Virus record (IMG/VR): IMGVR_UViG_3300027896_000105
Coordinates: 1-38,516 of that record
DNA from: a virus
Length of the DNA: 38,516 nt
Strand: one strand, 5' to 3'
In this document: one piece after another, positions 6,895 to 38,516 of the stretch
Layout: every line of letters begins with the position of its first letter
Numbering within the stretch: position 1 is the first letter of the stretch
Position numbers and translations under genes: made by a program
Notes under the pieces: generated by a model
Told to the model about the DNA's origin: nothing
What the model saw: only the letters and a program-made list of their open reading frames with translations
Database searches by the model: none

Positions 6895-7347
6895 ATGGCG
6901 AAAGGGTACCCGAAGAAGAAGAAATTTGTTCCGCAGAATAAAGAAAAGTATGTCGGGAATGTGGATTTAATAATCGCGAGATCTAATTTAGAATTAAGAT
7001 TTATGAGATGGTGTGATACACATTCTAGTGTCATACGTTATAGTAGCGAAGAAGTTATAATCCCATATATAAAGCCAACAGATAAAATGTATCATCGTTA
7101 TTTCGTCGACTTCTTGTTAACAATTCGTGATAAAGATGATGTTGAACATACTTATTTAGTGGAGATAAAACCGAAAAGTCAAACCAAACCACCTAGAAAA
7201 AGTAAAAATAAAACAAATAGAGCGTATTTAACAGAAACAGCAACTTTTTTAGTTAATAAAGCTAAGTTTGCTGCAGCTGAAAAATATTGCGAACAGAGAG
7301 GGTGGAAGTGGAAAGTATTAACGGAGGATCAATTGAAAACATTATAA
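6895..7347 (+). CDS. 4: Head completion protein gp4
   Basis: A 150-residue protein, the same length as T4 gp4 (also called gp50/gp4 head completion). The family has a TnsA/restriction-endonuclease-like core and acts on filled heads before tail joining. Visible features are a basic N-terminus (GYPKKKKFVPQNKEKY), RSNLELRFMRWCD, YHRYFVDFLLTIRD and YLVEIKPKSQ. The E..D...E-x-K arrangement suits a PD-(D/E)xK-type core. It is the first gene of the rightward operon, followed by gp2 after 6 bases, as in the T4 gene 2-4-53 neighbourhood. Confidence 0.88.
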   Translation: MAKGYPKKKKFVPQNKEKYVGNVDLIIARSNLELRFMRWCDTHSSVIRYSSEEVIIPYIKPTDKMYHRYFVDFLLTIRDKDDVEHTYLVEIKPKSQTKPPRKSKNKTNRAYLTETATFLVNKAKFAAAEKYCEQRGWKWKVLTEDQLKTL

Positions 7348-7353
7348 GATTAG

Positions 7354-8109
7354 ATGGCAATAATTAAAGGTACAGAATTTAAAGCCTCTGATGGTAATAA
7401 GTATAAGTTTTTAGGGAAACAGTGGGCTTTAGTCGATCCAAAAACAGGAAAGACTACGAGAATGGCTTCCACTAAAATAACATTAGAGTTAGAACGGTTA
7501 GCAGCCGCTAACCATATGATAACTCCATCTACTTCTGTTTTTGATACGTTATTATTGCGTGGTATTAGATCAGGAGAAGTGCCAGCAAGAACGCAAGCGG
7601 CAAGGGATTGGTTTAGAAATACAGCGAAAGGAACAACAATATCAAGGCATGAAATATTAGCTGAGAAAACGAGATTTGTGAATAAAGTTGAGCCAGGGAA
7701 AATGTACATGTTTCAATATTACGCCAAACTTCGTAACAAACTTCCTTATTGGGATGCTTTCCCTTTGATATTTCCTATAGAAAAATATGAAGATGGATTT
7801 TTAGGGATCAACTTCCACTATTTACCATACGATTTGCGAGCAAAATTAATGGATGCTCTTTATAAAATCTCAAGCGATAAACGATATGATGAGAAAACAA
7901 AATTGATTGCTAATTATAGGCTTTTAAAAGGTGCATCACAATATAAGTATTTCATACCGACAATTCACAGATATTTGTCAGAGCAAGTACAAAGTAAGTT
8001 CATTGAAGTTGCATCATCAGAATGGGATGTAGCTTTATTTTTACAAGTGCAGAATTGGAAAGGTTCGTCTCAGGATAAGATCTGGAGAGATTCAAGAAAT
8101 AAAATTTAA
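7354..8109 (+). CDS. 2: DNA end protector gp2-like head protein
   Basis: A 251-residue protein resembling the gp2 'DNA end protector' of T4-like phages (T4 gp2 is 274 aa), which binds packaged DNA ends and shields them from host RecBCD. The central segment reads MYMFQYYAKLRNKLPYWDAF and FPLIFPIEKYEDGFLGINFH, followed by YLPYDLRAKLMDALY. From memory this is highly conserved in proteins so annotated in marine T4-like phages. The N-terminal ~110 residues are basic. It directly follows gp4, the expected partner. Function is by homology only. Confidence 0.72.
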   Translation: MAIIKGTEFKASDGNKYKFLGKQWALVDPKTGKTTRMASTKITLELERLAAANHMITPSTSVFDTLLLRGIRSGEVPARTQAARDWFRNTAKGTTISRHEILAEKTRFVNKVEPGKMYMFQYYAKLRNKLPYWDAFPLIFPIEKYEDGFLGINFHYLPYDLRAKLMDALYKISSDKRYDEKTKLIANYRLLKGASQYKYFIPTIHRYLSEQVQSKFIEVASSEWDVALFLQVQNWKGSSQDKIWRDSRNKI

Positions 8110-8118
8110 AATAATTCA

Positions 8119-8856
8119 ATGGGAGCCGCATTTTCAGTTGACGATTTTAGATCGTCTTTTTCAGCAGGACTTGCAAGTCCTGCTCTATTTAGATTCAGAC
8201 TCTTAAGACTTCCTAAATTCATGACAGCAGGTGGTGCATCAATTTCTATTGGTGGCATTTCAGCATCAATAGGGGGTGCATCTAGCAATGCATATAGTAA
8301 TATTGAAGCATATGGTAACTCTGTTATAGGTTCTTTATCATCTAAAGCAATCACTGAATTACCAATGCATGTGAAAGCTGCGTCTATTATGGATCAAAAT
8401 ATTCAATGGGCACCGACTGCTTATTATGGAAAGCCGGTTAAATATCCAACACAAAATTCTACTGGTGATCTTACTTTAGAAATAGTTTCTTCTGGTGACT
8501 TCTGGGAAAGAGATTTTTTTAATATTTGGCAAAACTATATCATTGATTTTGGTATTAGAGCAAACAATCCAACATTCACTATTGGTTATTATGATGATTA
8601 TACAACAGAAGCTCTTGTTGAGGTATATAATGAAGAAGGAAAAATTGTATATTCAATCACAATGGATGGTGTTTGGCCAGTTCAAGTAGCAAGTATTGGT
8701 CTTGATTGGGCATCTAAAGATACAGCCTTAACATTCTCTGTCGATCTAGAAGTAGCATACTGGAGTGCTGTTAGTTCTAGTTATAATAATTCAGCCTCCT
8801 TCTCAATTGGTGGTATAAATGGTAGTGTTAATCTACCGAATAGCTTTATTCTTTAA
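8119..8856 (+). CDS. Tail tube-fold protein (gp54 tube initiator or gp19 tube)
   Basis: A 245-residue protein with the phage tail-tube fold. The N-terminal DDFRSSFSAGLASPALFRFR resembles the N-arm of gp19/gp54 proteins. The C-terminal half has the tube core (TGDLTLEIVSSGDFWERDFF, then ITMDGVWPVQVASIGLDWAS). Residues ~35-65 are a Gly/Ser/Ala-rich insert (ISIGGISASIGGASS). Because it sits with gp2 and the tail-chaperone/tape-measure genes, rather than beside a sheath gene, I favour the tube-initiator gp54 over the main tube protein. The sequence alone does not settle this. Confidence 0.75.
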   Translation: MGAAFSVDDFRSSFSAGLASPALFRFRLLRLPKFMTAGGASISIGGISASIGGASSNAYSNIEAYGNSVIGSLSSKAITELPMHVKAASIMDQNIQWAPTAYYGKPVKYPTQNSTGDLTLEIVSSGDFWERDFFNIWQNYIIDFGIRANNPTFTIGYYDDYTTEALVEVYNEEGKIVYSITMDGVWPVQVASIGLDWASKDTALTFSVDLEVAYWSAVSSSYNNSASFSIGGINGSVNLPNSFIL

Positions 8857-8890
8857 AATAATAATACACTATAACATAACATTTACAATT

Positions 8891-9616
8891 ATGGCTTTAC
8901 CGATTCTAGTAGCTCCGAAATATGAATTAGTTTTACCTTCAACTGGCAAAACATACTCTTATAGACCTTTCCTTGTAAAAGAAGAAAAAGTACTTCTTAT
9001 GGCAATGGAAGGGAATGATGAAAAAGAAATGATTAGTGCAATCAAGCAAATTATTTCTTCTTGTGTCGAAAATATTGATGTCAATATACTGCCGACATTT
9101 GATCTCGAATACGTCTTCTTAAAACTAAGAGCAAAATCAGTCAATGATAAAGTGACTTTTAATGTTAAACATGCAAATAATATTAATTCTAAAGGTGAAG
9201 ATTGTGATGGCGGTAGAGCTGTGACGATCGATTTAAATAAAGTTGAGGTTGTTAAGACACCCGGTCACACGAATAAGATTCAATTGAATGATCAAGTAGG
9301 ATTAATAATGAAGTATCCTAATATTGAAATTTCAGAAACCGCTAAGAATACAGATAGCGATACTGAGAATGTATTTGATATGATCAAGAAATGTATTGAA
9401 TCAGTTTTTGATACTGAAAGAACATATAGTCCATCTGATTATACACCGAAAGAAATGGACACTTTTATCGATTCGCTAACAAATCAACAGTTAGAAGATA
9501 TACAGAAGTTTTTTGAGACAATGCCGAAACTTAAATATGAAATGAAATGGAAATGTGAAAAATGTGGTTGCGAGGAAGTTGTATTATTAGAAGGATTAAA
9601 CAATTTTTTTACTTAA
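8891..9616 (+). CDS. 26: gp26-like baseplate hub / tail assembly chaperone
   Basis: A 241-residue protein related to the T4 gp26 family (baseplate hub subunit, now often viewed as a tail-assembly chaperone). The start at 8891 (MALPILVAPKYELVLPSTGK) is preferred over an upstream in-frame start inside the previous gene, because the family begins this way. The body is acidic and helical. The C-terminus has a zinc-knuckle-like W-K-C-x-x-C-G-C. The last sense codons lie over a T7 run (9604-9610) six bases before the stop, which is the likely frameshift site into the gp51-like frame. Confidence 0.78.
   Translation: MALPILVAPKYELVLPSTGKTYSYRPFLVKEEKVLLMAMEGNDEKEMISAIKQIISSCVENIDVNILPTFDLEYVFLKLRAKSVNDKVTFNVKHANNINSKGEDCDGGRAVTIDLNKVEVVKTPGHTNKIQLNDQVGLIMKYPNIEISETAKNTDSDTENVFDMIKKCIESVFDTERTYSPSDYTPKEMDTFIDSLTNQQLEDIQKFFETMPKLKYEMKWKCEKCGCEEVVLLEGLNNFFT
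9604..9610 (+). promoter_or_regulatory. Candidate -1 programmed frameshift site (T TTT TTT)
   Basis: In the gp26-like frame the codons read AAT TTT TTT ACT TAA, giving a perfect X-XXY-YYZ heptamer T TTT TTT just before the stop. A -1 slip continues as TAC TTA AGC ATG into the gp51-like frame, which is open from at least 9562. An AT-rich inverted repeat (ATGAAT at 9619-9624, ATTCAT at 9638-9643) begins 8 bases downstream, a typical stimulator spacing. Confidence 0.6.
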
Positions 9617-23447: not shown

Positions 23448-23807
23448 TTATGTTTTAAGATAGTAGTAGTTATTTAATTCTTCGACTAGTATAGGAAATA
23501 CTTTATTCATGAAAGTTTCATAAACCATACGACCGAAATATGAATTGTTAATCTTTTCATCTGTTAACGTAGATGATCCTTTAATAATATTTACATGAAA
23601 TACTAACAAATTATTATTATTCATACTACAAAATCGTACACTATATGTGCTTATAGTAAAACGAGTAACTATTATTCTCACATATGGGATGAAATCTTTA
23701 AAGATAGGAGAAGTGGTATCTGCTTCACCATTAAATCTAGATAGAATCATATTACATTGTATATTTGATTTAGAAATAATTATGTTATTAATTGATCCTT
23801 TTATCAT
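23448..23807 (-). CDS. Small-protein family member 1 (MIKG subgroup)
   Basis: A 119-residue protein of unknown function, closely related to its neighbour at 23827. It has the family N-terminal pattern G-x-x-x-N-I-h-h (MIKGSINNIIISKSNIQCNM) and the family C-terminal pattern (FMNKVFPILVEELNNYY), with predicted beta strands between. The stretch INNSYFGRMVYETFMNK is shared with the neighbour. No transmembrane segment, signal peptide or catalytic motif is visible. It is the last member of an eleven-gene leftward array. Confidence 0.75.
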   Translation of the reverse strand: MIKGSINNIIISKSNIQCNMILSRFNGEADTTSPIFKDFIPYVRIIVTRFTISTYSVRFCSMNNNNLLVFHVNIIKGSSTLTDEKINNSYFGRMVYETFMNKVFPILVEELNNYYYLKT

Positions 23808-23826
23808 GATAGCGGTTAAGAGTTAT

Positions 23827-24192
23827 TTATGTAAATGATTTTATTTTTTCAACTAGTATAGGTAATATCTTGTTCATGAAAGTCATATAAATCATACGAC
23901 CGAAATATGAATTGTTAATCTTTTCATCTGTTAATGAAGATCTCTTATTATCCATATTTACATTAAACATTAACATATTAGTATTATCCATACTATGAAA
24001 TTGTACTGAATATAAATCTAAATAAAGAGAAGTAATCGATATTTGTATATAAAGAGCTTGATCGTGGTCTGTAGACCAATCTTTAAAAATTCGAGAAATA
24101 GTATCTACTCTACCACTAAATCCAGATATGGACATATCACATTGTATGCTTGATTTAGAGACAACTATGTTATTGATTAAACCTTTTATCAT
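23827..24192 (-). CDS. Small-protein family member 2 (MIKG subgroup)
   Basis: A 121-residue paralogue of member 1: MIKGLINNIVVSKSSIQCDM at the start, then SSLTDEKINNSYFGRMIY and FMNKILPILVEKIKS at the end. The middle is more diverged than the ends. The pair arose by local duplication. Function unknown. Confidence 0.75.
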   Translation of the reverse strand: MIKGLINNIVVSKSSIQCDMSISGFSGRVDTISRIFKDWSTDHDQALYIQISITSLYLDLYSVQFHSMDNTNMLMFNVNMDNKRSSLTDEKINNSYFGRMIYMTFMNKILPILVEKIKSFT

Positions 24193-24286
24193 AATTAAAA
24201 TACTAAAATAACTTAAAAGTCAAAATCCTGAATCTTTTCTAGAGAAGAAGATATTATATGTGAGAGAATGGTAATGATATATTATA

Positions 24287-24688
24287 TCACTTTATATTCA
24301 TATCGGTTAACGCTTTTGTTCTATTGAGTACAGCTATCCTAGTTAATTCAAAATCAAGAATATCTCTTAGTTTTGGAAAGATTGATTTACAAAACGTAAC
24401 TTTTAATACATTACCTAACGGTACACCTTTTCTTAAAAGATTATAATTACCATCATAATCAAAAACCATCTCTGATAGAGATTTCGAAAAATGTATCGTT
24501 TCTAATTTAAGAAAATACATCACGGAAGATCTATTCAAGGTTACTTTTATATCTAAAGTACCGGATTGACATAACTTTAGATAATAACTTGGTATATTGA
24601 TTCTATGAGGTGCAATATTGAGATTTACAATACATTGCACTTTCTTATCAATAAATATTATATCAGTACAAGTCCCGTGCACTATCAT
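24287..24688 (-). CDS. Small-protein family member 3
   Basis: A 133-residue protein from the ATG at 24688, one base after the previous gene's stop; a TTG four codons earlier is less likely. It starts MIVHGTCTDIIFIDKKVQCI, matching the family pattern G-x-x-x-D-I-h-h, and has FCKSIFPKLRDIL toward the C-terminus, matching K-x-h-P-x-L. Unlike others it has a ~20-residue tail after that motif. It has no duplicate in the second cassette. A 94-base gap below it holds an AT-rich inverted repeat. Confidence 0.7.
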   Translation of the reverse strand: MIVHGTCTDIIFIDKKVQCIVNLNIAPHRINIPSYYLKLCQSGTLDIKVTLNRSSVMYFLKLETIHFSKSLSEMVFDYDGNYNLLRKGVPLGNVLKVTFCKSIFPKLRDILDFELTRIAVLNRTKALTDMNIK

Positions 24689-24689
24689 A

Positions 24690-25007
24690 TTATGTTCCAA
24701 GTAAAATTTTTAATAAATTTGAAAAAACTTTACTCCTAATTGTATAAATATAATTTTTATAGATTTCTTGAGAAGTTTCAAGGCTCCTAACCTCCCACCC
24801 CTTTCTTAGATTATAACACTCTTGATAAGAAAAAGTAGGATTATTATCATCTACTATCCACAATAAGAATTCAGATGCTAATGTAGGTCTAGAGATACAT
24901 ACATATAATTTTATTGACGAATTTTCAAATGTAACATTAGCGTATATTGCATTTCTCTCGTCATTAACTACTATATCGCTTACACTCCCGTTCAATAACT
25001 GTTCCAT
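24690..25007 (-). CDS. Small-protein family member 4 (cassette copy 2, gene A)
   Basis: A 105-residue protein from the ATG at 25007 (MEQLLNGSVSDIVVNDER), chosen because the paralogue at 26359-26676 is also 105 aa from its ATG. The first ~45 residues are almost identical to that paralogue while the C-terminal third has diverged, except NLRKGWE. Family patterns GSVSDIVV and SKVFSNLLKIL are present. Function unknown. Confidence 0.75.
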   Translation of the reverse strand: MEQLLNGSVSDIVVNDERNAIYANVTFENSSIKLYVCISRPTLASEFLLWIVDDNNPTFSYQECYNLRKGWEVRSLETSQEIYKNYIYTIRSKVFSNLLKILLGT

Positions 25008-25035
25008 GTTATATTTTTTTATAATAAAAAATTTT

Positions 25036-25398
25036 TTATTCAAAGTATGTTAATAAATGAGGAATAATTTTTAAATCTAGCGTATTTTGAATAGAATCAC
25101 ATTCAATTTTAGTGTTGAACATTTTAAATTTAGTTTCTGAGAAATTTGTTTGACCTCTCTTTATAGTTCCAAAAATAGCTTTTTCGTTATTCAACAATGA
25201 TATTGCTTTGAAGGTATAATCATGAGTATGATCGTCTTCATAAATATAACAATCATACGTCTCATATAAATCTATAAACTTAATATGAAAAAAGATATAT
25301 TTATTATATGAAATTATTATTTCATATACATTTCCTGTCAGATATGGTATATCTGACGACGGTTTATAAGGTACATACTCTTCTTCCGTTACACTCAT
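25036..25398 (-). CDS. Small-protein family member 5 (cassette copy 2, gene B)
   Basis: A 120-residue protein: LTGNVYEIIISYNKYIFFHI near the start, IFGTIKRGQTNFSETKF in the middle, LDLKIIPHLLTYFE at the end. The last two are shared with the paralogue at 26730-27086. Aromatic-rich beta strands dominate. The start overlaps the upstream stop by 4 bases, so translation is coupled. Function unknown. Confidence 0.75.
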   Translation of the reverse strand: MSVTEEEYVPYKPSSDIPYLTGNVYEIIISYNKYIFFHIKFIDLYETYDCYIYEDDHTHDYTFKAISLLNNEKAIFGTIKRGQTNFSETKFKMFNTKIECDSIQNTLDLKIIPHLLTYFE

Positions 25399-25823
25399 AC
25401 TAATTCTTGTAAAATCCTAAAAATAATGGATTGAATAACTATCTTACAGTAAACTAAATCGCGTACAGGTAAATCATCAATAGCAATTATTTCTGTCCGA
25501 TCTGGATATATAAAACTAAGAGCTACTGGTAATAATGGAGCATTTTCATTAGGTACAATTATACAATTATCAATCTTTTTAGAATAACCCATTATTAGTG
25601 AAACATAATTATCTTTCATTCTAAAAGTGAAAGCTATATCAAACCAATTAACATTATCATTAATAAAAGATCCTAGCGCAAGACTAGCTCTTTTTTTAAA
25701 GAATATTTCTCCACTATTTATTATTCCAGGCATATCAAACTTTGCTTTGCACCATATCCCTTCCACCTCTATATTAAAAACATTCCCCCTAAGAGTAGCG
25801 TTACCATCAAACCAAATACTCAT
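25395..25823 (-). CDS. Small-protein family member 6 (cassette copy 2, gene C)
   Basis: A 142-residue protein starting MSIWFDGNATLRGNVFNIEV and ending VYCKIVIQSIIFRILQELV. The paralogue at 27083 matches along its whole length (RGNVFNIEV-GIWC-AKFD and P-LP-ALSFI segments), with most change in the central loop. It is the largest family subgroup. No known domain is recognised. Confidence 0.75.
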   Translation of the reverse strand: MSIWFDGNATLRGNVFNIEVEGIWCKAKFDMPGIINSGEIFFKKRASLALGSFINDNVNWFDIAFTFRMKDNYVSLIMGYSKKIDNCIIVPNENAPLLPVALSFIYPDRTEIIAIDDLPVRDLVYCKIVIQSIIFRILQELV

Positions 25824-25837
25824 GATAATCTATTAAT

Positions 25838-26203
25838 TTATTTAGATCTAGACGATGTCAAAATTTTAGGTAGAATTTTCATAACAAAAAGATGCATAAT
25901 ATCAGACTCTAGATCTGATAATAAAAAACTCTTTTTAACGACGTTTTTAGTGTTGTCGTTATAATGAATAGGCATTCCTTTTACTGACATTTCAACCCGG
26001 AACTTAAACAGCTTATCACTAATAATATTTGCGCTATCAGACCAGATGTCAAACTTAACTAAATATTTACCTTCACCTTCTACTATTTCATACAACTTAA
26101 AGTTATATTTATGAATACTGTTTTCGAGTACGAAGTGTCCTTTATGAGATTCATCATTTTGATCATAATACACATCTGAGCATATACCTTTATCAATAAA
26201 CAT
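25838..26203 (-). CDS. Small-protein family member 7 (cassette copy 2, gene D)
   Basis: A 121-residue protein from the ATG at 26203, which has a clear GGAGG upstream; a TTG at 26221 is rejected. N-terminus MFIDKGICSDVYYDQNDESH; C-terminus MHLFVMKILPKIL plus a short tail. The last ~38 residues are nearly identical to the paralogue at 27611 at DNA level, while the N-terminal two thirds differ strongly. Function unknown. Confidence 0.75.
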   Translation of the reverse strand: MFIDKGICSDVYYDQNDESHKGHFVLENSIHKYNFKLYEIVEGEGKYLVKFDIWSDSANIISDKLFKFRVEMSVKGMPIHYNDNTKNVVKKSFLLSDLESDIMHLFVMKILPKILTSSRSK

Positions 26204-26226
26204 AATGTAAATTTCCTCCAAAAAAA

Positions 26227-26291
26227 TTAAAATTCATGAAGAAGAAGCATCAACTCCTTCAACTTATTTTTTATAAAGTAATTTAAGATTT
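26227..26291 (-). pseudogene. Remnant of the RNase H gene 3' end
   Basis: The minus strand here encodes ILNYFIKNKLKELMLLLHEF followed by TAA, matching the last 20 residues and stop of the RNase H at 28010-28852 with one substitution (I to M) and several silent changes. No upstream coding sequence accompanies it. It marks the edge of the unit that was duplicated. Confidence 0.85.
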
Positions 26292-26336
26292 GAGCAAGAA
26301 AACTCTGTTGTCTTCAGCTGCAGAGATGAATTGCTC
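26292..26336 (-). other. Inverted repeat at the duplication junction
   Basis: GAGCAA (26292-26297) pairs with TTGCTC (26331-26336), and inside that CTCTG (26303-26307) pairs with CAGAG (26321-26325) across a small internal loop. It is richer in GC than its surroundings and sits between the RNase H remnant and the next gene. It has no U-tract, so it is not a typical terminator. A small RNA or a recombination scar are options. Confidence 0.5.
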
Positions 26337-26358
26337 GCTCGTTATATACCATAAGATA

Positions 26359-26676
26359 TTATTTTTCAATTAAAATATCTAATAAACTATGAAATACTTT
26401 ACACTTAATTGTATATATAAATTTAACATAAAACTCTTGAGGGATTTCAGTATTAAACTCCCACCCCTTTCTTAGATTATAACGATCTTGATAAGAAAAA
26501 GTAGGATTATTATCATCTACTATAAACAGTCGAAATATATCAAGTGCAAAGGTAGGCCTAGAGATACATACATATAATTTTATTGACGAATTTTCAAATG
26601 TAACATAAGCGTATATTGCATTTCTCTCGTCATTAACTACTATATCGCTTACACTCCCTCTCAATGGCTCTTCCAT
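26359..26676 (-). CDS. Small-protein family member 8 (cassette copy 1, gene A)
   Basis: A 105-residue paralogue of the 24690-25007 gene: MEEPLRGSVSDIVVNDERNA, then VTFENSSIKLYVCISRP, identical to its partner over most of the N-terminal half and diverged after about residue 45 except around NLRKGWEF. It ends KCKVFHSLLDILIEK. Function unknown. Confidence 0.75.
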   Translation of the reverse strand: MEEPLRGSVSDIVVNDERNAIYAYVTFENSSIKLYVCISRPTFALDIFRLFIVDDNNPTFSYQDRYNLRKGWEFNTEIPQEFYVKFIYTIKCKVFHSLLDILIEK

Positions 26677-26729
26677 ATCATATATTTTTTTGTTAATTTT
26701 TTATACTTATAATATAATAAAAAATTTGT

Positions 26730-27086
26730 TTATTCAAGGTATGCAAACAGATGAGGAATAATTTTTATCTCTAACACATTTCGAATAGAATCGCATTCGA
26801 GCTGGGTGCTGAGCCCATTAAACTTCATAAATGAAAAATTTGTTTGACCTTTTTTTATAATCCCAAAAATAGATTTTTCAGTATTTACTAATGACTTCGC
26901 TGTAAAGTTATAATCATGAGTAAGAGTGTTCTCATAAACACAACATTCATACCGATCGTGCAACTCTATAAAATTAATATAAAAAAAAGTAGTTAAATAG
27001 TATGAAAATATATTACATACATTTCCTGTCAGTGTTAGTATATTTGATGATTGGTAAAACATATACTCATTTTCTAATACGCTCAT
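26730..27086 (-). CDS. Small-protein family member 9 (cassette copy 1, gene B)
   Basis: A 118-residue paralogue of 25036-25398. Shared segments: LTGNVCNIFSYYLTTFFYIN, IFGIIKKGQTNFSFMKF and LEIKIIPHLFAYLE. An ATGA overlap with the upstream gene couples translation, as in the other cassette. Function unknown. Confidence 0.75.
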   Translation of the reverse strand: MSVLENEYMFYQSSNILTLTGNVCNIFSYYLTTFFYINFIELHDRYECCVYENTLTHDYNFTAKSLVNTEKSIFGIIKKGQTNFSFMKFNGLSTQLECDSIRNVLEIKIIPHLFAYLE

Positions 27087-27520
27087 AATATTTTCTGTAA
27101 AATAATATTGATAATAGATTGAATAATTGTCTTACAATATACTAGATCGTGTGTATGTAGATTGTCAATATCAATTATTTCTATTCTGTCTGAAAATATA
27201 AAACTAAGAGCTGCCGGGAATAACGGGGAGGTGTCATTAGGTATAATTATATAGTTTTCATTCTCATTAGGATAATAACCTTCTACGAGTGTAACGAAAC
27301 TATCTTTCTTTCTATAAGAAAAAGCTATATCAAACCACCTTATATTTTTACTGATTCTTTTAAAAGAGTCTAAATCCGGACAATTTCTTTTTTTAATGAA
27401 GATTTCTCCGTTGCTTACTATTCCAGGTATATCAAATTTTGCTGTACACCATATCCCATCCACTTCTATATTAAAAACATATCCTCTAAGATCGGTGTTT
27501 GTATCAAACCAAACGCTCAT
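27083..27520 (-). CDS. Small-protein family member 10 (cassette copy 1, gene C)
   Basis: A 145-residue protein from the ATG at 27520, which aligns with the start of its paralogue; another ATG lies three codons upstream. It reads MSVWFDTNTDLRGYVFNIEV and later LFPAALSFIFSDRIEIIDID, ending CKTIIQSIINIILQKIL. Small insertions relative to the paralogue lie in the central loop (FKRISKN and NENEN). Function unknown. Confidence 0.75.
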   Translation of the reverse strand: MSVWFDTNTDLRGYVFNIEVDGIWCTAKFDIPGIVSNGEIFIKKRNCPDLDSFKRISKNIRWFDIAFSYRKKDSFVTLVEGYYPNENENYIIIPNDTSPLFPAALSFIFSDRIEIIDIDNLHTHDLVYCKTIIQSIINIILQKIL

Positions 27521-27610
27521 ATCAAACATTCTCCAGTTTGCACTAATCCTTGTTTTTCATCTACAATTGCATCATTTTCCGGTTAACGGTGACTATCATG
27601 ATGAAGTATT

Positions 27611-27982
27611 TTATTTAAAAGAACCGGATAGCAGAATTTTAGGTAGAATTTTCATAACAAAAAGATGCATAATATCAGACTCTAGATCTGATAATAAAAA
27701 ACTCTTTTTAGCGACGTTTTTAGTGTTATCGTTATAATGAATAGGCATACCATTTGTACTCATCTCAATTCTAAACTTAAGCAACCTATCACTAATAACG
27801 CTAAATTTGTCGTCCCAGATGTCGAATTTAACCAAAATACCGCTTACACCAACTATTTCTTCTATACCATATAACCTAAAATGGTATATACAAGTACTGT
27901 TATCGAGTGTGAAGCTGCCATTATAAGAATCGTCACCTGGTGAATAGCGCACTTCTGAACATGCACCTTTATCAATAACCAT
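27611..27982 (-). CDS. Small-protein family member 11 (cassette copy 1, gene D)
   Basis: A 123-residue protein from the ATG at 27982, preceded by GGAGG at good spacing. It reads MVIDKGACSEVRYSPGDDSY and ends in the near-invariant block GMPIHYNDNTKNVAKKSFLL plus SDLESDIMHLFVMKILPKIL. It is the first gene of the array, starting 27 bases after RNase H. Function unknown. Confidence 0.75.
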   Translation of the reverse strand: MVIDKGACSEVRYSPGDDSYNGSFTLDNSTCIYHFRLYGIEEIVGVSGILVKFDIWDDKFSVISDRLLKFRIEMSTNGMPIHYNDNTKNVAKKSFLLSDLESDIMHLFVMKILPKILLSGSFK

Positions 27983-28009
27983 AATATAAATTACCTCCAA
28001 AAGTAATAA

Positions 28010-28852
28010 TTAAAATTCATGAAGAAGAAGAATAAGTTCTTTCAACTTATTTTTTATAAAGTAATTTAAGATTTTATCTCTTGAATTCCTAGAAGGAATT
28101 CTATACATTTCTAGGATTTTATCAACATATTCTTCTGGGATTTTAGAGAAATCAATGAGCTGTTGATTGCGCTCATATCTTCGTCTTGTTTCTTCATCAA
28201 GAGATGATAAGAATTTGTCCTCAGTAACATCTAACCAACCACTCATATTTTTCTTATAGATGCACTTTTGTTTTATAGTAGATATGCAGCCATCATCTGG
28301 CGAAAGAAAGTTCGGGACACCGTCACTAGCATCCCCTCTAATAATATGCTCTCTCAAAAACGCTTCTGAATTTTTACAGTTCACAATAATTTTCTTCCTA
28401 GGGTCATATTGATGAACGTTATCATACTTCTGTAGTTGAACATAATCTTTATCAGAGGAAATAATCATATGATTATCTTTATCATTCATTGCAATCACAG
28501 CGATAATATCATCTCCTTCACAGCCATTCACCTGCATGACTTTGTATGGAAAATTCTCTGCTATTTCATCACGCATTTTATTGAAACCAGCATATAGCTC
28601 ATTCCAGTCTATTCCGGATGACGCTCTATTCACCGCTCTATTAGCTTTATAGTTTGGAAAAGCTTTCTTTCTCCATGAATCTTTTCCTTCAAAAGCTAGA
28701 ACTAATTCACCATACTTATTCTTAAATTTGGTTCTATATGATCTTAAATTATTAAGAACCATATGTCGCAACAATCCCTCATTATATGTTCTAGTATCAT
28801 TATCAGTTAATACAGACAGTATCATTACTTGAGTAATGTCGACTATTATCAT
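28010..28852 (-). CDS. rnh: RNase H (T4-type 5'-3' exonuclease / flap nuclease)
   Basis: A 280-residue homologue of T4 RNase H (305 aa), a FEN-family nuclease that removes RNA primers from lagging-strand fragments. Metal-site segments are visible in order: IIVDITQVMI, NGCEGDDIIAV, IISSDKDYVQLQ and IIRGDASDGVPNFLS, each with the expected Asp/Glu. The C-terminus (NYFIKNKLKELILLLHEF) is the part duplicated at 26227. The start is ATG 11 bases after the preceding gene, without a Shine-Dalgarno. Confidence 0.92.
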   Translation of the reverse strand: MIIVDITQVMILSVLTDNDTRTYNEGLLRHMVLNNLRSYRTKFKNKYGELVLAFEGKDSWRKKAFPNYKANRAVNRASSGIDWNELYAGFNKMRDEIAENFPYKVMQVNGCEGDDIIAVIAMNDKDNHMIISSDKDYVQLQKYDNVHQYDPRKKIIVNCKNSEAFLREHIIRGDASDGVPNFLSPDDGCISTIKQKCIYKKNMSGWLDVTEDKFLSSLDEETRRRYERNQQLIDFSKIPEEYVDKILEMYRIPSRNSRDKILNYFIKNKLKELILLLHEF

Positions 28853-32564: not shown

Positions 32565-32774
32565 TTAATATTTTAAAATAGAAAATATCATATTCACATT
32601 CTTATAGGATTCAGTTATTGAAGAGAAGTTAGATTTAAAGATAGATTTTAACAAATTAGTTATCTCTAAAAACTGTACCCATGCGCATGTAGTTTTTATA
32701 GATAACGGTGATCGACTCTCGAGTGATAAAGCAGTTGTCTTATAATCAGCTGCTTGCTTCAAATTCAATCTCAT
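32565..32774 (-). CDS. Coupled minigene MRLNL, block copy A
   Basis: A 69-residue protein starting MRLNLKQAADYKTTALSLES. The ATG at 32774 overlaps the upstream stop (ATGA), so I prefer it to an earlier GTG-like start in the same frame. A conserved segment TTCAWVQFLEITN matches ITWAQFLEVNG in copy B at 35807; the rest is diverged. Function unknown. Confidence 0.65.
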   Translation of the reverse strand: MRLNLKQAADYKTTALSLESRSPLSIKTTCAWVQFLEITNLLKSIFKSNFSSITESYKNVNMIFSILKY

Positions 32775-33001
32775 ATTTTCTCCCAACCTAGCGCAGCGTA
32801 GTGTATATCGAAAAGCGAGGTTATAAAGAGAGGTGTTATAAGCCAGATAATATTACCGGTGAGATAACATACTATGGCATGAATAAATGCTTGTGTCTTC
32901 AATCCTCTGAAATATAAGTAGCATGGACCGAATAATAATGACCATAAAACTGAATTTTTAATCTCCACAACTTCCCCTGTTATCTCGTTTTTGTATTTCA
33001 T
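32771..33001 (-). CDS. Two-helix membrane protein (DUF2628-like), block copy A
   Basis: A 76-residue protein: a polar N-terminus (MKYKNEITGEVVEIKNS), first hydrophobic segment with the pattern LWSLLFGPCYLYFRGLK, and second segment IVCYLTGNIIWLITPLFITS. The L-W-x-x-L-F-G-x-x-Y motif resembles DUF2628-type small membrane proteins. It is about three quarters identical to copy B at 35986. It lies between the phosphoesterase and the MRLNL minigene in both copies. Confidence 0.75.
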   Translation of the reverse strand: MKYKNEITGEVVEIKNSVLWSLLFGPCYLYFRGLKTQAFIHAIVCYLTGNIIWLITPLFITSLFDIHYAALGWEKI

Positions 33002-33007
33002 TTAATT

Positions 33008-33766
33008 TTACACGTTTACTGTTAATAGAGGATCATAAGAGCTACCTTCAAAATAATAACCGACAGGATTACATATCACTTCACATCCACTTATCTTGTA
33101 ACTACAACAATCATGATGATGCCCATGAATCCAATAATCCACTCTTTCAACCATATACTCTAATTCTGAGCAATATAATCCGTTATATTTGTTACCTTTA
33201 TACTTATTATTAACACTCTGGAAAGATGGTGAGTGATGAGTTACAATTATCACCTTATAATCTAACATTTTAAAGTAATTACATTTATAACTCAAAATAC
33301 GTTTCTGTTTATTATGCAAAGATAAGATCTTTTTCGGAAGAATTCTACGAGTTTTATTGTCAAAGATACAATCATAATCAGGAAAATCTAACTGAGCTTG
33401 AACCATAAGAAGTGGATTATTTTTATCAAAATCAGTCCAAAGAGTCTCTCCTATGATAGCAAGTTTTTTACTAGGAAGAATCAATTCATGAGAATAAAGA
33501 TTTAAATACTCATCTGTAGGAATAATCTGATCAAGTGTTCCACCATAATATTCATGATTGCCTGTCACCCAGAATACGAATTTAAATCTATTACAAAGAG
33601 ATTCAATGAATAGTATATTCTTATCAAGTCTAACTAACTCACATAAATCTCCTGCTATGATGAGAATAGTATCTTTTTCATCCTCTAAAACAGGAAGCTC
33701 GAAATCTCTTTTATACTTATTACGATATTGATCGTTATGAATATCACTTAAGATTCTGATTTTCAT
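33008..33766 (-). CDS. Calcineurin-like metallophosphoesterase, block copy A
   Basis: A 252-residue phosphoesterase from the ATG at 33766. All metal-ligand motifs are present in order: MKIRILSDIHNDQY (D-x-H), IIAGDLCELV (G-D), WVTGNHEYYGG (G-N-H-E), IIVTHHSPSF (H) and WIHGHHHDCC (G-H-x-H). It is expected to cleave phosphomono- or diesters with two metal ions; nucleotide signals or nucleic-acid ends are possible substrates. Copy B at 36221 is highly similar throughout, and both look active. Confidence 0.88.
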   Translation of the reverse strand: MKIRILSDIHNDQYRNKYKRDFELPVLEDEKDTILIIAGDLCELVRLDKNILFIESLCNRFKFVFWVTGNHEYYGGTLDQIIPTDEYLNLYSHELILPSKKLAIIGETLWTDFDKNNPLLMVQAQLDFPDYDCIFDNKTRRILPKKILSLHNKQKRILSYKCNYFKMLDYKVIIVTHHSPSFQSVNNKYKGNKYNGLYCSELEYMVERVDYWIHGHHHDCCSYKISGCEVICNPVGYYFEGSSYDPLLTVNV

Positions 33767-33924
33767 TTTTATTTGAGTTAGTAATTTTGTGATAATAATA
33801 TACAACGTATGATAACGTATAAACAGTAAATGTTACAATAAATATTTGTTGCAATACCGAGCGCTAGTGAGACTGAATATACTAATAATATTACTACGAA
33901 CATTATTAAGAATATCTCAAGCAC
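33744..33924 (-). pseudogene. Frameshifted copy of the small membrane protein, block copy A
   Basis: The equivalent gene in copy B (36957-37172) encodes a 71-aa membrane protein. Here the start is GTG, giving MLEIFLIMFVVILLVYSVSL in one frame. The C-terminal part (VVYYYHKITNSNKNENQN) lies in a different frame, and the middle is shorter. Read from GTG it would stop after 48 residues. A deletion with frameshift is the simplest explanation. Confidence 0.75.
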
Positions 33925-34189
33925 TGAGCTTTGATTTTTTTTGTTCACCTCGTACTCTTTTATTTTCTTTTTTTATCAATATAAGTTTACGATCTTGCAT
34001 TTCATTCCACCACACTTCACGTTCAACACTATTATCAGCACTTGCAATAGTCTCAACTCTCTCTATACATATAAGAAGATTTCTAGCAGACTCTGTACGA
34101 TTCTGAATCGCTGGTCTTATTAAAATCATATACTTTTTTTCAGCTGAAAACTTATTACTGAAACGTTCTGGTATTAAACCCTCTATCAT
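33917..34189 (-). CDS. Hypothetical protein MIEGL, block copy A
   Basis: A 90-residue, charged, probably helical protein: MIEGLIPERFSNKFSAEKKY, then MILIRPAIQNRTESARNLL, EREVWWNEMQDRKL and a basic tail. It is about 80% identical to copy B at 37174. It is first in its block. The stop is later than in copy B, because the TAA there is CTC here, so it overlaps the degraded membrane gene. Function unknown. Confidence 0.72.
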   Translation of the reverse strand: MIEGLIPERFSNKFSAEKKYMILIRPAIQNRTESARNLLICIERVETIASADNSVEREVWWNEMQDRKLILIKKENKRVRGEQKKSKLSA

Positions 34190-34217
34190 AACTTTTCTTT
34201 TAAATGTTATTCTAACC

Positions 34218-34239
34218 TAAATATAATAAATTTTGTTAA
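34218..34239 (-). repeat. 22-bp upstream element, copy 1
   Basis: The minus strand TTAACAAAATTTATTATATTTA is identical to 38413-38434, and the similarity extends with mismatches to ~33 bp. Here it ends 29 bases before the MIEGL gene start, a plausible promoter position; no consensus -35/-10 spacing is evident. Confidence 0.7.
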
Positions 34240-34248
34240 AACATCATA

Positions 34249-34434
34249 CTATAGATCACACATTATAACAAAATCTGTCAGAGGTTTGGTAAAAGTTATG
34301 TATATCCAGTAATATACAAGAGAAAACACTATATCTCTTAGTGGCATAGTAATTTTTTTTTCATCAAGATAATCTGAGATTGCTAGCATATGAATTGGTC
34401 TAGTACGACATAAGTTGTTTAGATTAAGTTTCAT
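34249..34434 (-). CDS. Coupled minigene MKLNL
   Basis: A 61-residue ORF from the ATG at 34434, which overlaps the upstream stop (ATGA). It reads MKLNLNNLCRTRPIHMLAIS and has a hydrophobic middle (FSLVYYWIYITF). A longer frame extending upstream is rejected in favour of the coupled start. Function unknown. Confidence 0.6.
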   Translation of the reverse strand: MKLNLNNLCRTRPIHMLAISDYLDEKKITMPLRDIVFSLVYYWIYITFTKPLTDFVIMCDL

Positions 34435-35806: not shown

Positions 35807-35989
35807 TTACATGTAACCGTGTAAGATTAATTTTAGCTTATAATACATATCTGCTGTATTACCATTTACCTCTAAAAACTGAGCCCATGTAATAGTTTTT
35901 AGAGGTAACAACAAAGCATCATACAGTCGGTCCCCGAAGATATTTTTATTTGTTCTTAAGCCATCTCTATGCTTCAAATTCAATCTCAT
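35807..35989 (-). CDS. Coupled minigene MRLNL, block copy B
   Basis: A 60-residue protein starting MRLNLKHRDGLRTNKNIFGD from the ATG at 35989, which overlaps the upstream stop (ATGA) exactly as in copy A. The segment ITWAQFLEVNG is shared with copy A at 32565, and the tail differs. Function unknown. Confidence 0.65.
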   Translation of the reverse strand: MRLNLKHRDGLRTNKNIFGDRLYDALLLPLKTITWAQFLEVNGNTADMYYKLKLILHGYM

Positions 35990-36216
35990 ATTTTCTCCCA
36001 CCCCAGCACTTGATAGTGAGCGTCAAAAACTTGGTTTATAAAAAGTGGTGTTAAAAGCCATGCAATACCACCGGTAAGAAAACATGCTATAACATGCATA
36101 AATGCTTGTGTCCTCAGTCCTTTGAGGTATAAGTAGCACGACCCGAATAGTAGTGACCATAAAATTGGGTTTTTAATCTCTACCACTTCTCCTGTTGTTT
36201 CATTTTTATATTTCAT
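35986..36216 (-). CDS. Two-helix membrane protein (DUF2628-like), block copy B
   Basis: A 76-residue partner of the 32771-33001 gene with the same length: MKYKNETTGEVVEIKNPILW, LLFGSCYLYLKGLRTQAF, then ACFLTGGIAWLLTPLFINQ. Both hydrophobic helices and the L-F-G-x-x-Y motif are kept, and most changes are conservative. Its presence in both blocks suggests it works with the phosphoesterase, possibly at the inner membrane. Confidence 0.75.
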   Translation of the reverse strand: MKYKNETTGEVVEIKNPILWSLLFGSCYLYLKGLRTQAFMHVIACFLTGGIAWLLTPLFINQVFDAHYQVLGWEKI

Positions 36217-36220
36217 TTTT

Positions 36221-36979
36221 TTATATGTTTATTGTTAATAGAGGATCAAAAGAACTACCTTCAAAAAAATAACCAGCGGGATTACATATCACTTCACAGT
36301 CACTTATCTTGTAACGGCAACAATCATGGTGATGACCATGAATCCAATAATTAGCATTTTGAACCATATATTCTAATTCTGAACAATATAATCCATTATA
36401 ATTGTCACCTTTATACTTAACATCAACACTCTGATAAGATGGAGAGTGATGAGTTACAATTATCACCTTATAATCTAGCATTCTATAATAATTACATTTA
36501 CTACTCAAAATTTGTTTCTGTTCATTATGTAAAGATAAAATTTTTTCCGGAAGAATTCTACAATCTTTATCGTCAAAAATATAATCATAATCAGAATACT
36601 CAAATTGAGCTTGAACCATAAGAAGAGGATTCTTCTTATCAAAATCCGTCCAGAGAGTTTCTCCTATGATAGCAAGTTTTTTACTAGGAAGGATGAGCTC
36701 ATGTGAGTATAGATTCAAATACTCATCTACAGGAACAATTTGATCAAGTGTTCCGCTATAATATTCATGATTGCCTGTCACCCAGAATACGAATTTAAAT
36801 CTTACACATAGCGATTCAATGAATGATATATTACTATCAAGTCTGGACAATTCACACAAATCACCAGCTATGATAAGAATAGTATCTTTTTCATCTTTTA
36901 AAACAGGAAGCTCGAAATCTTTTCCATATTCCTGTTGATAATGGTCATTATGAATATCACTTAGAATTCTGATTTTCAT
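36221..36979 (-). CDS. Calcineurin-like metallophosphoesterase, block copy B
   Basis: A 252-residue enzyme from the ATG at 36979, the same length as copy A. Motifs are intact: RILSDIHNDHY, IIAGDLCELS, WVTGNHEYYSG, IIVTHHSPSY and WIHGHHHDCC. Differences from copy A are scattered over the surface and conservative in the core, indicating selection to keep both active. The start overlaps the end of the upstream membrane gene by 23 bases. Confidence 0.88.
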   Translation of the reverse strand: MKIRILSDIHNDHYQQEYGKDFELPVLKDEKDTILIIAGDLCELSRLDSNISFIESLCVRFKFVFWVTGNHEYYSGTLDQIVPVDEYLNLYSHELILPSKKLAIIGETLWTDFDKKNPLLMVQAQFEYSDYDYIFDDKDCRILPEKILSLHNEQKQILSSKCNYYRMLDYKVIIVTHHSPSYQSVDVKYKGDNYNGLYCSELEYMVQNANYWIHGHHHDCCRYKISDCEVICNPAGYFFEGSSFDPLLTINI

Positions 36980-37172
36980 TTTTATTTGATTTAGTGATTT
37001 TGTGATAATGATATATAATATACAATAAAATATATACAAAATATACAGCAATAACTATTAATACAAATGTTTTTATGAAAAAAAATAAAATAGGTATTAT
37101 AATAACTAGTGCTAGTATAACTGTATAAGCTACTATTACTAATAAGAACGCTGTTAAAAATGTTTCAAGCAT
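36957..37172 (-). CDS. Small hydrophobic membrane protein, block copy B
   Basis: A 71-residue protein with two long hydrophobic segments (FLTAFLLVIVAYTVILALVI and FVLIVIAVYFVYILLYII) and a basic tail (YHYHKITKSNKNENQNSK). Copy A at 33744 is frameshifted, so this is the only intact version. It lies one base after the MIESL gene. Membrane location is clear; function unknown. Confidence 0.7.
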   Translation of the reverse strand: MLETFLTAFLLVIVAYTVILALVIIIPILFFFIKTFVLIVIAVYFVYILLYIIYHYHKITKSNKNENQNSK

Positions 37173-37173
37173 T

Positions 37174-37437
37174 TTACCTTGATTTTTTTTGTCTATCTCG
37201 TAATCTCTTATTTTCTTTTTCTATCAACACAAGTTTATGATCTTGCATCTCATTCCACCACACTTCTCGCTTGACACTACTATCAGTATCTGCAATAGTC
37301 TCAACCCTCTCTATACATGTGAGAAGATTTCTAGCAGATTCTGTACGATTCTGAATCGCTGGCTTTATTAAAATCATATACTTTTTTTCAGCGGAAGCCT
37401 TTTCCTGAAAATGCTCTGGTATTAAACTCTCTATCAT
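37174..37437 (-). CDS. Hypothetical protein MIESL, block copy B
   Basis: An 87-residue charged protein: MIESLIPEHFQEKASAEKKY, MILIKPAIQNRTESARNLL, KREVWWNEMQDHKL. It is about 80% identical to copy A at 33917. An AAGGTG sequence lies 7 bases before the ATG, a usable Shine-Dalgarno. It is first in its block. Function unknown. Confidence 0.72.
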   Translation of the reverse strand: MIESLIPEHFQEKASAEKKYMILIKPAIQNRTESARNLLTCIERVETIADTDSSVKREVWWNEMQDHKLVLIEKENKRLRDRQKKSR

Positions 37438-37471
37438 AATGCACCTTTTTTAATTTAGTTAAATAATTAAC

Positions 37472-37789
37472 TCATATACCTAGGGCTATGATTTCGTCGT
37501 CTGTTAAGATTTTAAATACGTCTTTAATATCAGACAACTTATTCAATGCTGATATTTTTAATTCTTGCTTTAATATATCATAGGTAATTTCTTTTTCATC
37601 AATGTTAAGTTGTTCTTCTAAAAGAAACATTTCAACGTCATCGTATATGCATGAAAATTTAACGCTGAATGTATGAGTTTTCAATTCTTTTGATACAATG
37701 CATTCGGTATTATTGCTATTGAATTGAATGTCATAACCTAGAATAACAGCTTTTTTAATATTTTTCCTCAAAGTGTCAATATAACTCAT
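37472..37789 (-). CDS. Hypothetical protein
   Basis: A 105-residue acidic protein starting MSYIDTLRKNIKKAVILGYD, with a beta-type middle (THTFSVKFSCIYDDVEMFLL) and helical end (DVFKILTDDEIIALGI). It has no recognised domain. It lies in the segment between the 22-bp element at 38413 and the duplicated block and has no counterpart in copy A. Confidence 0.65.
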   Translation of the reverse strand: MSYIDTLRKNIKKAVILGYDIQFNSNNTECIVSKELKTHTFSVKFSCIYDDVEMFLLEEQLNIDEKEITYDILKQELKISALNKLSDIKDVFKILTDDEIIALGI

Positions 37790-37808
37790 AATAACTAGAT
37801 TAAAATTT

Positions 37809-38051
37809 TTAGTTAGCTCTTAAATCTTCTATTGTGAGGAATTGCTCTGCTATCTTGAGTTCTTCAACCACTTTTTGCATTACGATGCCTTTAGTAAAAA
37901 ACGTACATGCAAGCGTTAGTTCCCATCCACTCATTTCTTCATTCGTCAATTTTTCCGTTTTTTCAACCCACTTGATGAACATATTATAATAATGTTCGTT
38001 TATTTTTTTCAGTTCATCTAATTCCTTTGAAATAGTGTTATTCTTTTTCAT
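37809..38051 (-). CDS. Small hypothetical protein
   Basis: An 80-residue helical protein from the ATG at 38051, chosen because GGAGA lies 7 bases upstream; an in-frame extension to 38153 would run into the structured RNA region and is rejected. It reads MKKNNTISKELDELKKINEH, then WVEKTEKLTNEEMSGWELTL and ACTFFTKGIVMQKVVEELKI. No known domain. It directly follows the RNA candidate on the same strand. Confidence 0.65.
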   Translation of the reverse strand: MKKNNTISKELDELKKINEHYYNMFIKWVEKTEKLTNEEMSGWELTLACTFFTKGIVMQKVVEELKIAEQFLTIEDLRAN

Positions 38052-38154
38052 GATTCGTCTCCAATTTTTATAAATAACCGGCATTCTTAACATTTTGTTC
38101 CTTAGTATTCGGGTATAACCCCTTGTAAATAACTCCATTGCATTATGAAGCAAT

Positions 38155-38400
38155 AGAAATCTTCCCTCGACCTGGGCATCACCTTAAGCTATTAGAACTG
38201 GGAATGCATTCTAACGCGCTTAGGCTTCTTGTTAGAAACCAATGGATACCGGCTGCTTATTCTGTTTTCATAATTACTTTTGGAATAAGCGATCTTATCA
38301 ACCACTAAATCATCTCAATAACAAGATGATGACCTAATCAAACTTTTGGAATGACCAAGCCCTTAAGTCTTTAGCTTAAGGGTGATTGACTATATCATAT
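38155..38400 (-). ncRNA. Candidate structured non-coding RNA of unknown class
   Basis: This ~245-base segment has no ORF I can support and is clearly richer in GC (almost half over 38161-38240) than its ~25-30% flanks. Perfect inverted repeats are CCCTTAAG/CTTAAGGG (38360-38367 with 38375-38382), ATCATCT/AGATGAT (38309-38315 with 38324-38330), GCTTATTC/GAATAAGC (38255-38262 with 38283-38290) and TTCTAAC/GTTAGAA (38209-38215 with 38231-38237). A palindrome GAATGCATTC lies at 38202-38211. A long-range pairing CCATTG (38135-38140) with CAATGG (38240-38245) is possible. Minus strand is inferred from flanking genes. No tRNA, tmRNA, RNase P or SRP signature was found. Confidence 0.55.
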
Positions 38401-38412
38401 TCTAATTACTAT

Positions 38413-38434
38413 TAAATATAATAAATTTTGTTAA
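38413..38434 (-). repeat. 22-bp upstream element, copy 2
   Basis: Identical to 34218-34239. Here it lies just upstream of the structured RNA candidate and just after the stop of the partial gene at the window edge. It could be the RNA promoter. Confidence 0.7.
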
Positions 38435-38438
38435 GAGG

Positions 38439-38516
38439 TCATACTTTTAAATATTGTATTTGATCAATTGTATAGAGTAAGAGCTCAAAATTATTATGAT
38501 CACGAGCAACCCAATC
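38439..38516 (-). CDS. C-terminal end of a hypothetical protein (partial)
   Basis: The minus strand is open from the window edge to TGA at 38439-38441, encoding DWVARDHNNFELLLYTIDQI and a short tail. The start W-V-A-R-D resembles small phage proteins with a W/Y-V-A-R-D-x-x-G motif. Only 25 residues are visible, so this is tentative. Confidence 0.4.
   Translation of the reverse strand, partial: DWVARDHNNFELLLYTIDQIQYLKV

Follow-up and report, generated by a model that had tools for sequence, protein, structure and literature searches.

A strongly folding minus-strand segment of a viral DNA fragment is a divergent IsrB-type omegaRNA (an OMEGA guide RNA, HEARO-like in terms of Rfam families) and does not represent a new RNA class. 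The window, i.e. the whole stretch of DNA that we analysed, is a 38.5-kb fragment (38,516 nt; IMG/VR record IMGVR_UViG_3300027896_000105) assigned to a T4-like phage by its gp32, RNase H and baseplate genes. The omegaRNA scaffold occupies positions 38130-38390 on the minus strand (∼261 nt, from GUCAAUC to the last hairpin), as supported by the HEARO alignment, by identity with one homologous phage locus, L006, and by a covariance-model match to another, L008. Very probably we are dealing with an orphan, the omegaRNA of a RuvC-only (IsrB-type) OMEGA system of the IS200/IS605 type that stands in the phage as a solo left end. The RNA is of a known kind; what is new is its effector-less setting in a T4-like phage, a group of phages to which OMEGA guide RNAs are hereby extended. 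IsrB-type ‘jumping gene’ nickases are related to the ancestors of CRISPR-Cas9.

The minus strand at 38110-38400 folds with a minimum free energy (MFE) of −85.3 kcal/mol (z = −4.2; 0 of 200 shuffles were as good), while the plus strand of the same interval folds more weakly (z = −2.2); this bears out the original prediction of a non-coding minus-strand segment with a strong fold. Perfect stems are also present, with the palindromic sequence located within the CCCTTAAG...CTTAAGGG hairpin. The MFE at the RNA segment (−77.1) was the lowest among all 260-nt tiles of the window tried. The GC content, earlier given as nearly half, is 37.6% in the RNA segment versus 31.9% in the whole window, and 9.4% of the 266-nt windows of this DNA have a GC content as high or higher. 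Several 300-base windows of the same DNA reach a GC fraction of 0.40-0.46, and fold z-scores from −3 to −3.7 were observed at other places; thus, the structural observation stands, while the claim that this is the only such segment falls. No tRNA or tmRNA was found in the window, and the phage nucleotide collection gave no match.

Assignment to the IsrB type

At the Rfam gathering threshold nothing was detected in the window. A permissive scan produced a sub-threshold alignment to HEARO (RF02033) at 38390-38155 of the minus strand, covering model positions 1-211 of 211, with a score of 22.1 bits (E = 3e-4 for the record), to be compared with the curated gathering score of 83 bits. The phage relatives linked to isrB also score below 83 bits (25.2 for the RNA of contig L006, 35.2 and 27.4 for the RNAs of L011 and L012), so a low HEARO score is usual for phage IsrB-type RNAs.

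Contigs L006 and L008, both from uncultured phages, were reached through two pattern scans of viral contigs; pattern matches in L004, L005 and L007 gave no covariance-model hit and were dismissed as chance. The L006 omegaRNA is 87% identical to that of the window over 329 nt; right behind it, on the same strand, come a gene for a 371-aa RRXRR protein and then an IS200-type transposase gene (tnpA). With a Y1 transposase and hairpin ends, L006 holds a complete IS200/IS605-type element. In L008 a more distant copy of the omegaRNA lies directly upstream of a gene for a homologous 364-aa protein, again on the same strand.

The proteins encoded in L006 and L008 match the Pfam RRXRR family, with an NCBIfam IscB match that is partial and below the cut-off. 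They have the RuvC I, II and III motifs and no HNH. The best PDB match of the linked protein is DtIsrB (8dmb, E = 2.3e-25), with IscBs at 1e-9 or weaker. We therefore rejected an IscB-type omegaRNA in favour of the IsrB type, given the missing HNH and the DtIsrB match. The protein features that mark an IsrB, PLMP/RRXRR plus a split RuvC and no HNH, were found in the homologues only. An AlphaFold model of the L006 IsrB had a mean pLDDT of 37 and was left out of the argument.

The RNA had been described as a candidate of unknown class, with four options offered. The guide-scaffold-type option turned out to be the right one, and the unknown class did not survive the full-length HEARO alignment and the isrB-linked homologues. 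A large phage ncRNA of a new class, or the remnant of an intron, in either case with no relation to OMEGA systems, would agree with the silence of Rfam at the gathering threshold; nevertheless, we consider it extremely improbable in view of the HEARO alignment and the covariation, and the linkage of the homologues to isrB contradicts both forms of it. No IsrB relatives were found by a pattern search in bacterial genomes, nor was the omegaRNA core motif found there.

Scaffold architecture and covariation

The 5′ domain (38297-38390, minus strand) is made of a closing stem (38390-38382/38305-38297) and three hairpins, 38381-38361, 38360-38332 and 38330-38309, the last with two doubly changed pairs. 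In the central domain (38169-38294, minus strand) a 4-bp stem (38294-38291/38172-38169) surrounds hairpins 38290-38255, 38240-38223 and 38221-38186 together with stem 38250-38245/38180-38175. All central-domain pairs are intact in the window, and hairpin 38240-38223 can form in the window, L006 and L008 with a different stem sequence in each. The scaffold ends with a terminator-like 3′ hairpin (38133-38158, minus strand), in which four of eight pairs are doubly changed in comparison with L006.

Two tertiary contacts are suggested by the sequence. A candidate nexus pseudoknot (within 38162-38204, minus strand) would join loop UUCCC (38204-38200) to GGGAA (38166-38162). Both strands are present and invariant in the window, L006 and L008; hence, they provide no covariation and do not prove the pseudoknot. 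The other contact is the one complementarity that bears out the predicted long-range pairing: AUUAUGAA in the central loop (38274-38267) is complementary over 8 nt to UUCAUAAU (38149-38142) in the loop of the 3′ hairpin; when the unpaired bases were shuffled 400 times, this length was reached once. L006 keeps this complementarity with one G-U pair, and L008 has neither loop.

Between the window and L006 eight helix pairs differ in both partners, and in several others one partner has changed. In the alignment of these two sequences 99.3% of paired cells can pair, a value that drops to 21-44% if partners are slid by one to three columns. Since these counts come from two close sequences from which the structure itself was derived, they call for independent support, which comes from a covariance model made of the window and L006: built without L008, it finds the L008 RNA at E = 5e-17. 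Conserved secondary structure with covariation, one of the features by which we judged membership in the IsrB-type omegaRNAs, is therefore present in this RNA.

With its guide the RNA would measure ∼280 nt, much like the 284-nt omegaRNA of DtIsrB (PDB 8dmb). As in other IsrB-type omegaRNAs, stem-loops are nested, and the RNA stands, in the homologues, 5′ of a RuvC-only IsrB gene; the window differs in having no isrB beside the RNA. The candidate UUCCC/GGGAA contact would be the loop-to-junction connection of group A IsrB omegaRNAs, exemplified by the viral K2IsrB (PMC9581776). The terminal region of that group is described as unpaired, whereas here it forms a 3′ hairpin with a loop sequence complementary to the central loop. 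With HEARO, the IscB-associated RNA family, the RNA shares the end-to-end alignment, the CUAAAG loop, the GAAUGC...CCAGUUC element and the CGAGG motif; it differs in the score (22.1 versus 83 bits), in the extra hairpins of the 5′ domain and in having no HNH endonuclease gene.

The insertion and the missing genes

The site of the RNA can be compared with an empty one in the same genome. Two paralogous regions of the window (32755-34250 and 35970-38445) each contain a metallophosphoesterase gene, a small ORF and a 33-bp element, and one of them has the omegaRNA insertion. In the empty block (32755-34250, minus strand) the element is directly followed by a gene at 34189-33917, with no RNA or extra ORFs in between, and then by the metallophosphoesterase gene. 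The corresponding block downstream of the insertion (35970-37439, minus strand) is 83-85% identical to it. The RNA was predicted to lie downstream of an element (given as 22 bp), and so it does: the repeated element, 33 bp long, is at 38445-38413, with a 91% identical copy at 34250-34218. Since one block lacks the insertion, we conclude that the RNA lies within an insertion of ∼0.9 kb between the repeated promoter-like element and the gene. Here a guide RNA has outlived its nuclease, and the paralogous block in the same genome offers an empty site for comparison. A 105-aa ORF at 37472-37789, inside the insertion, may be cargo.

No IscB or IsrB is encoded in the 38.5-kb record; beside the RNA there are just the first ∼10 codons of isrB (38064-38093, minus strand; MLRMPVIYKN, aligned to MLRMPVFHKD of L006), closely preceded by the ribosome-binding site AAGGA. 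This start continues in frame into an 80-aa ORF (38051-37809), and the fusion makes a 94-aa ORF (37809-38093, minus strand). As predicted, the RNA lies upstream of an 80-aa ORF that has a Shine-Dalgarno sequence. The 94-aa/80-aa ORF matches no family above its cut-off, and neither the 80-aa ORF nor the neighbouring metallophosphoesterase has relatives in viral contigs. As the window is a fragment, an effector may be encoded elsewhere in the phage.

The record has no Y1 transposase gene either; of the element the window has just the left end and, apart from it, the right end. The latter is a solo hairpin of the same transposon family (26289-26336, minus strand, ending in ...TTGCTCAA), 46 of 48 nt (96%) of which are identical to L006 7298-7345, located just after tnpA. 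A compensatory change (CTCTG/CAGAG versus CCCTG/CAGGG) distinguishes the window and L006 copies of this hairpin. The solo right end is 12 kb away from the RNA, where the two copies of a diverged tandem duplication meet. Such duplications occur within 23473-28074, where 24687-26291 pairs with 26356-28074 (76-80%) and 23473-23807 with 23840-24192 (76%).

The terminator-like hairpin (38158-38133) closely precedes the fused start codon, and the ORF is fused in frame on the same strand; this would suit a cis-regulatory leader of the 94-aa/80-aa ORF, e.g. an attenuator derived from what was once an omegaRNA. Still, the same hairpin precedes isrB in L006 and is therefore ancestral, the fold agrees with an omegaRNA throughout, and no Rfam riboswitch was found. 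We regard the leader function as improbable, though possible as a secondary role.

The putative guide and the fate of the orphan RNA

IsrB omegaRNAs carry a 20-nt guide at the 5′ end, and 20 nt were used in the DtIsrB structure (PMC9581776). By analogy, the putative guide of the orphan omegaRNA is the ∼20-nt sequence AGTAATTAGAATATGATATA (38391-38410, minus strand) directly 5′ of the scaffold. The flanks of the two paralogous blocks stay similar (TTAGAATA..AT.TA) as far as the first scaffold base; the putative guide is therefore the native flank of the phage itself. Upstream of it, the 33-bp element (38413-38445, minus strand) has a promoter-like arrangement, ATGACC-16-TATATT; promoter-like sites are no more numerous in the region than expected by chance, and for this reason the element is a putative promoter only. 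A start ∼7 nt past the −10 hexamer would give a guide of 18-19 nt. Within the window no second target of the guide was better than random 16-mers, and the IsrB TAM (NTG) was not seen beside the paralogous empty site.

If these assignments are correct, the phage 33-bp element would drive transcription from near 38408, and the product, ended by the terminator-like hairpin 38158-38133, would be an RNA of ∼280 nt with ∼18-20 nt of native flank as a guide, followed by the scaffold. An IsrB supplied in trans, from elsewhere in the incomplete genome, from a co-infecting phage or from the host, would then nick matching unoccupied sites; with no such IsrB the RNA would be inert. Either the effector would have been lost recently enough, or the RNA selected strongly enough, for no helix to have decayed.

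None of the 79 modelled pairs is broken in the window. When neutral substitutions were simulated, all pairs stayed intact with P = 0.027 for 6 substitutions and P = 0.003 for 10, so fewer than ∼6 neutral substitutions have accumulated since any release from selection. Changes polarised with L008 number seven in the window and seven in L006. The intact fold agrees with recent orphaning as well as with continued use. The gradings given to these two readings divide the best explanation and do not introduce alternatives to the omegaRNA identity.

We give about an even chance to the RNA being an inert relic, unused since a recent internal deletion took away isrB, tnpA and the right end. Consistent with this are the truncated isrB stub, the absence of tnpA and the separate right end 12 kb off at a duplication junction; recent loss would leave the fold intact with no need of selection. 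However, the loss has to be as recent as fewer than ∼6 neutral substitutions, yet the RNA differs from that of L006 at ∼13% of positions.

It is possible, at a lower probability, that the orphan is kept under selection as a domesticated guide RNA working with an IsrB in trans, or as a decoy sequestering a foreign IsrB. As a guide it might direct nicking of unoccupied or rival phage DNA, in a homing-like process or in inter-phage competition. The 79 intact pairs, changes no faster on the window side (7 versus 7) and the spacing of the repeated promoter-like element of the phage, which suits a guide of 18-20 nt, would all fit such a role. There are also precedents: omegaRNAs standing alone reportedly function with IscB (as stated in PMC9581776), and phages encode TldR, RNA-guided transcription factors related to TnpB (PMC13418256). 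On the other hand, there is no effector on the contig, the guide lacks a better-than-chance target in the window and the intactness is equally well explained by recent loss; furthermore, a search with covariance models brought up no further copy in 50 gp32-related phage records, which were mostly fragments. We thus propose only tentatively that a T4-like phage domesticated a promoter-driven orphan IsrB omegaRNA as a trans-acting guide or decoy in phage–phage or phage–host conflict. If true, the lineage that led to Cas9 would have given rise to an exaptation consisting of RNA alone.

The standalone omegaRNAs acting with IscB likewise have no adjacent effector; unlike them, the RNA of the window is of IsrB type, resides in a T4-like phage and has the first codons of its effector still attached, its activity in trans being putative. 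In TldR, too, phages have kept transposon-derived guide-RNA machinery, but there it is the protein, of the TnpB line, that is kept, while here it is the RNA alone, of the IsrB/IscB line.

Some related loci deserve mention. In L006 the omegaRNA, isrB, the IS200 tnpA and the right-end hairpin occupy 7298-9150 in a tail-gene region of the phage, and the element apparently splits a small gene close to its start codon. In L008 the omegaRNA and isrB (2432-3792) lie between baseplate-type genes, as a homing gene would, with no tnpA seen. Microcystis phages MaMV-DC and LMM01 (L011 and L012) encode distant RRXRR (IsrB-like) proteins, directly upstream of whose genes are the sub-threshold HEARO matches, at 1287-1478 in both; these omegaRNA-like RNAs are not annotated. 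The HEARO cut-off of Rfam thus misses IsrB-type omegaRNAs of phages, even of such well-studied ones, and therefore RNAs of this kind are probably under-annotated in phages.
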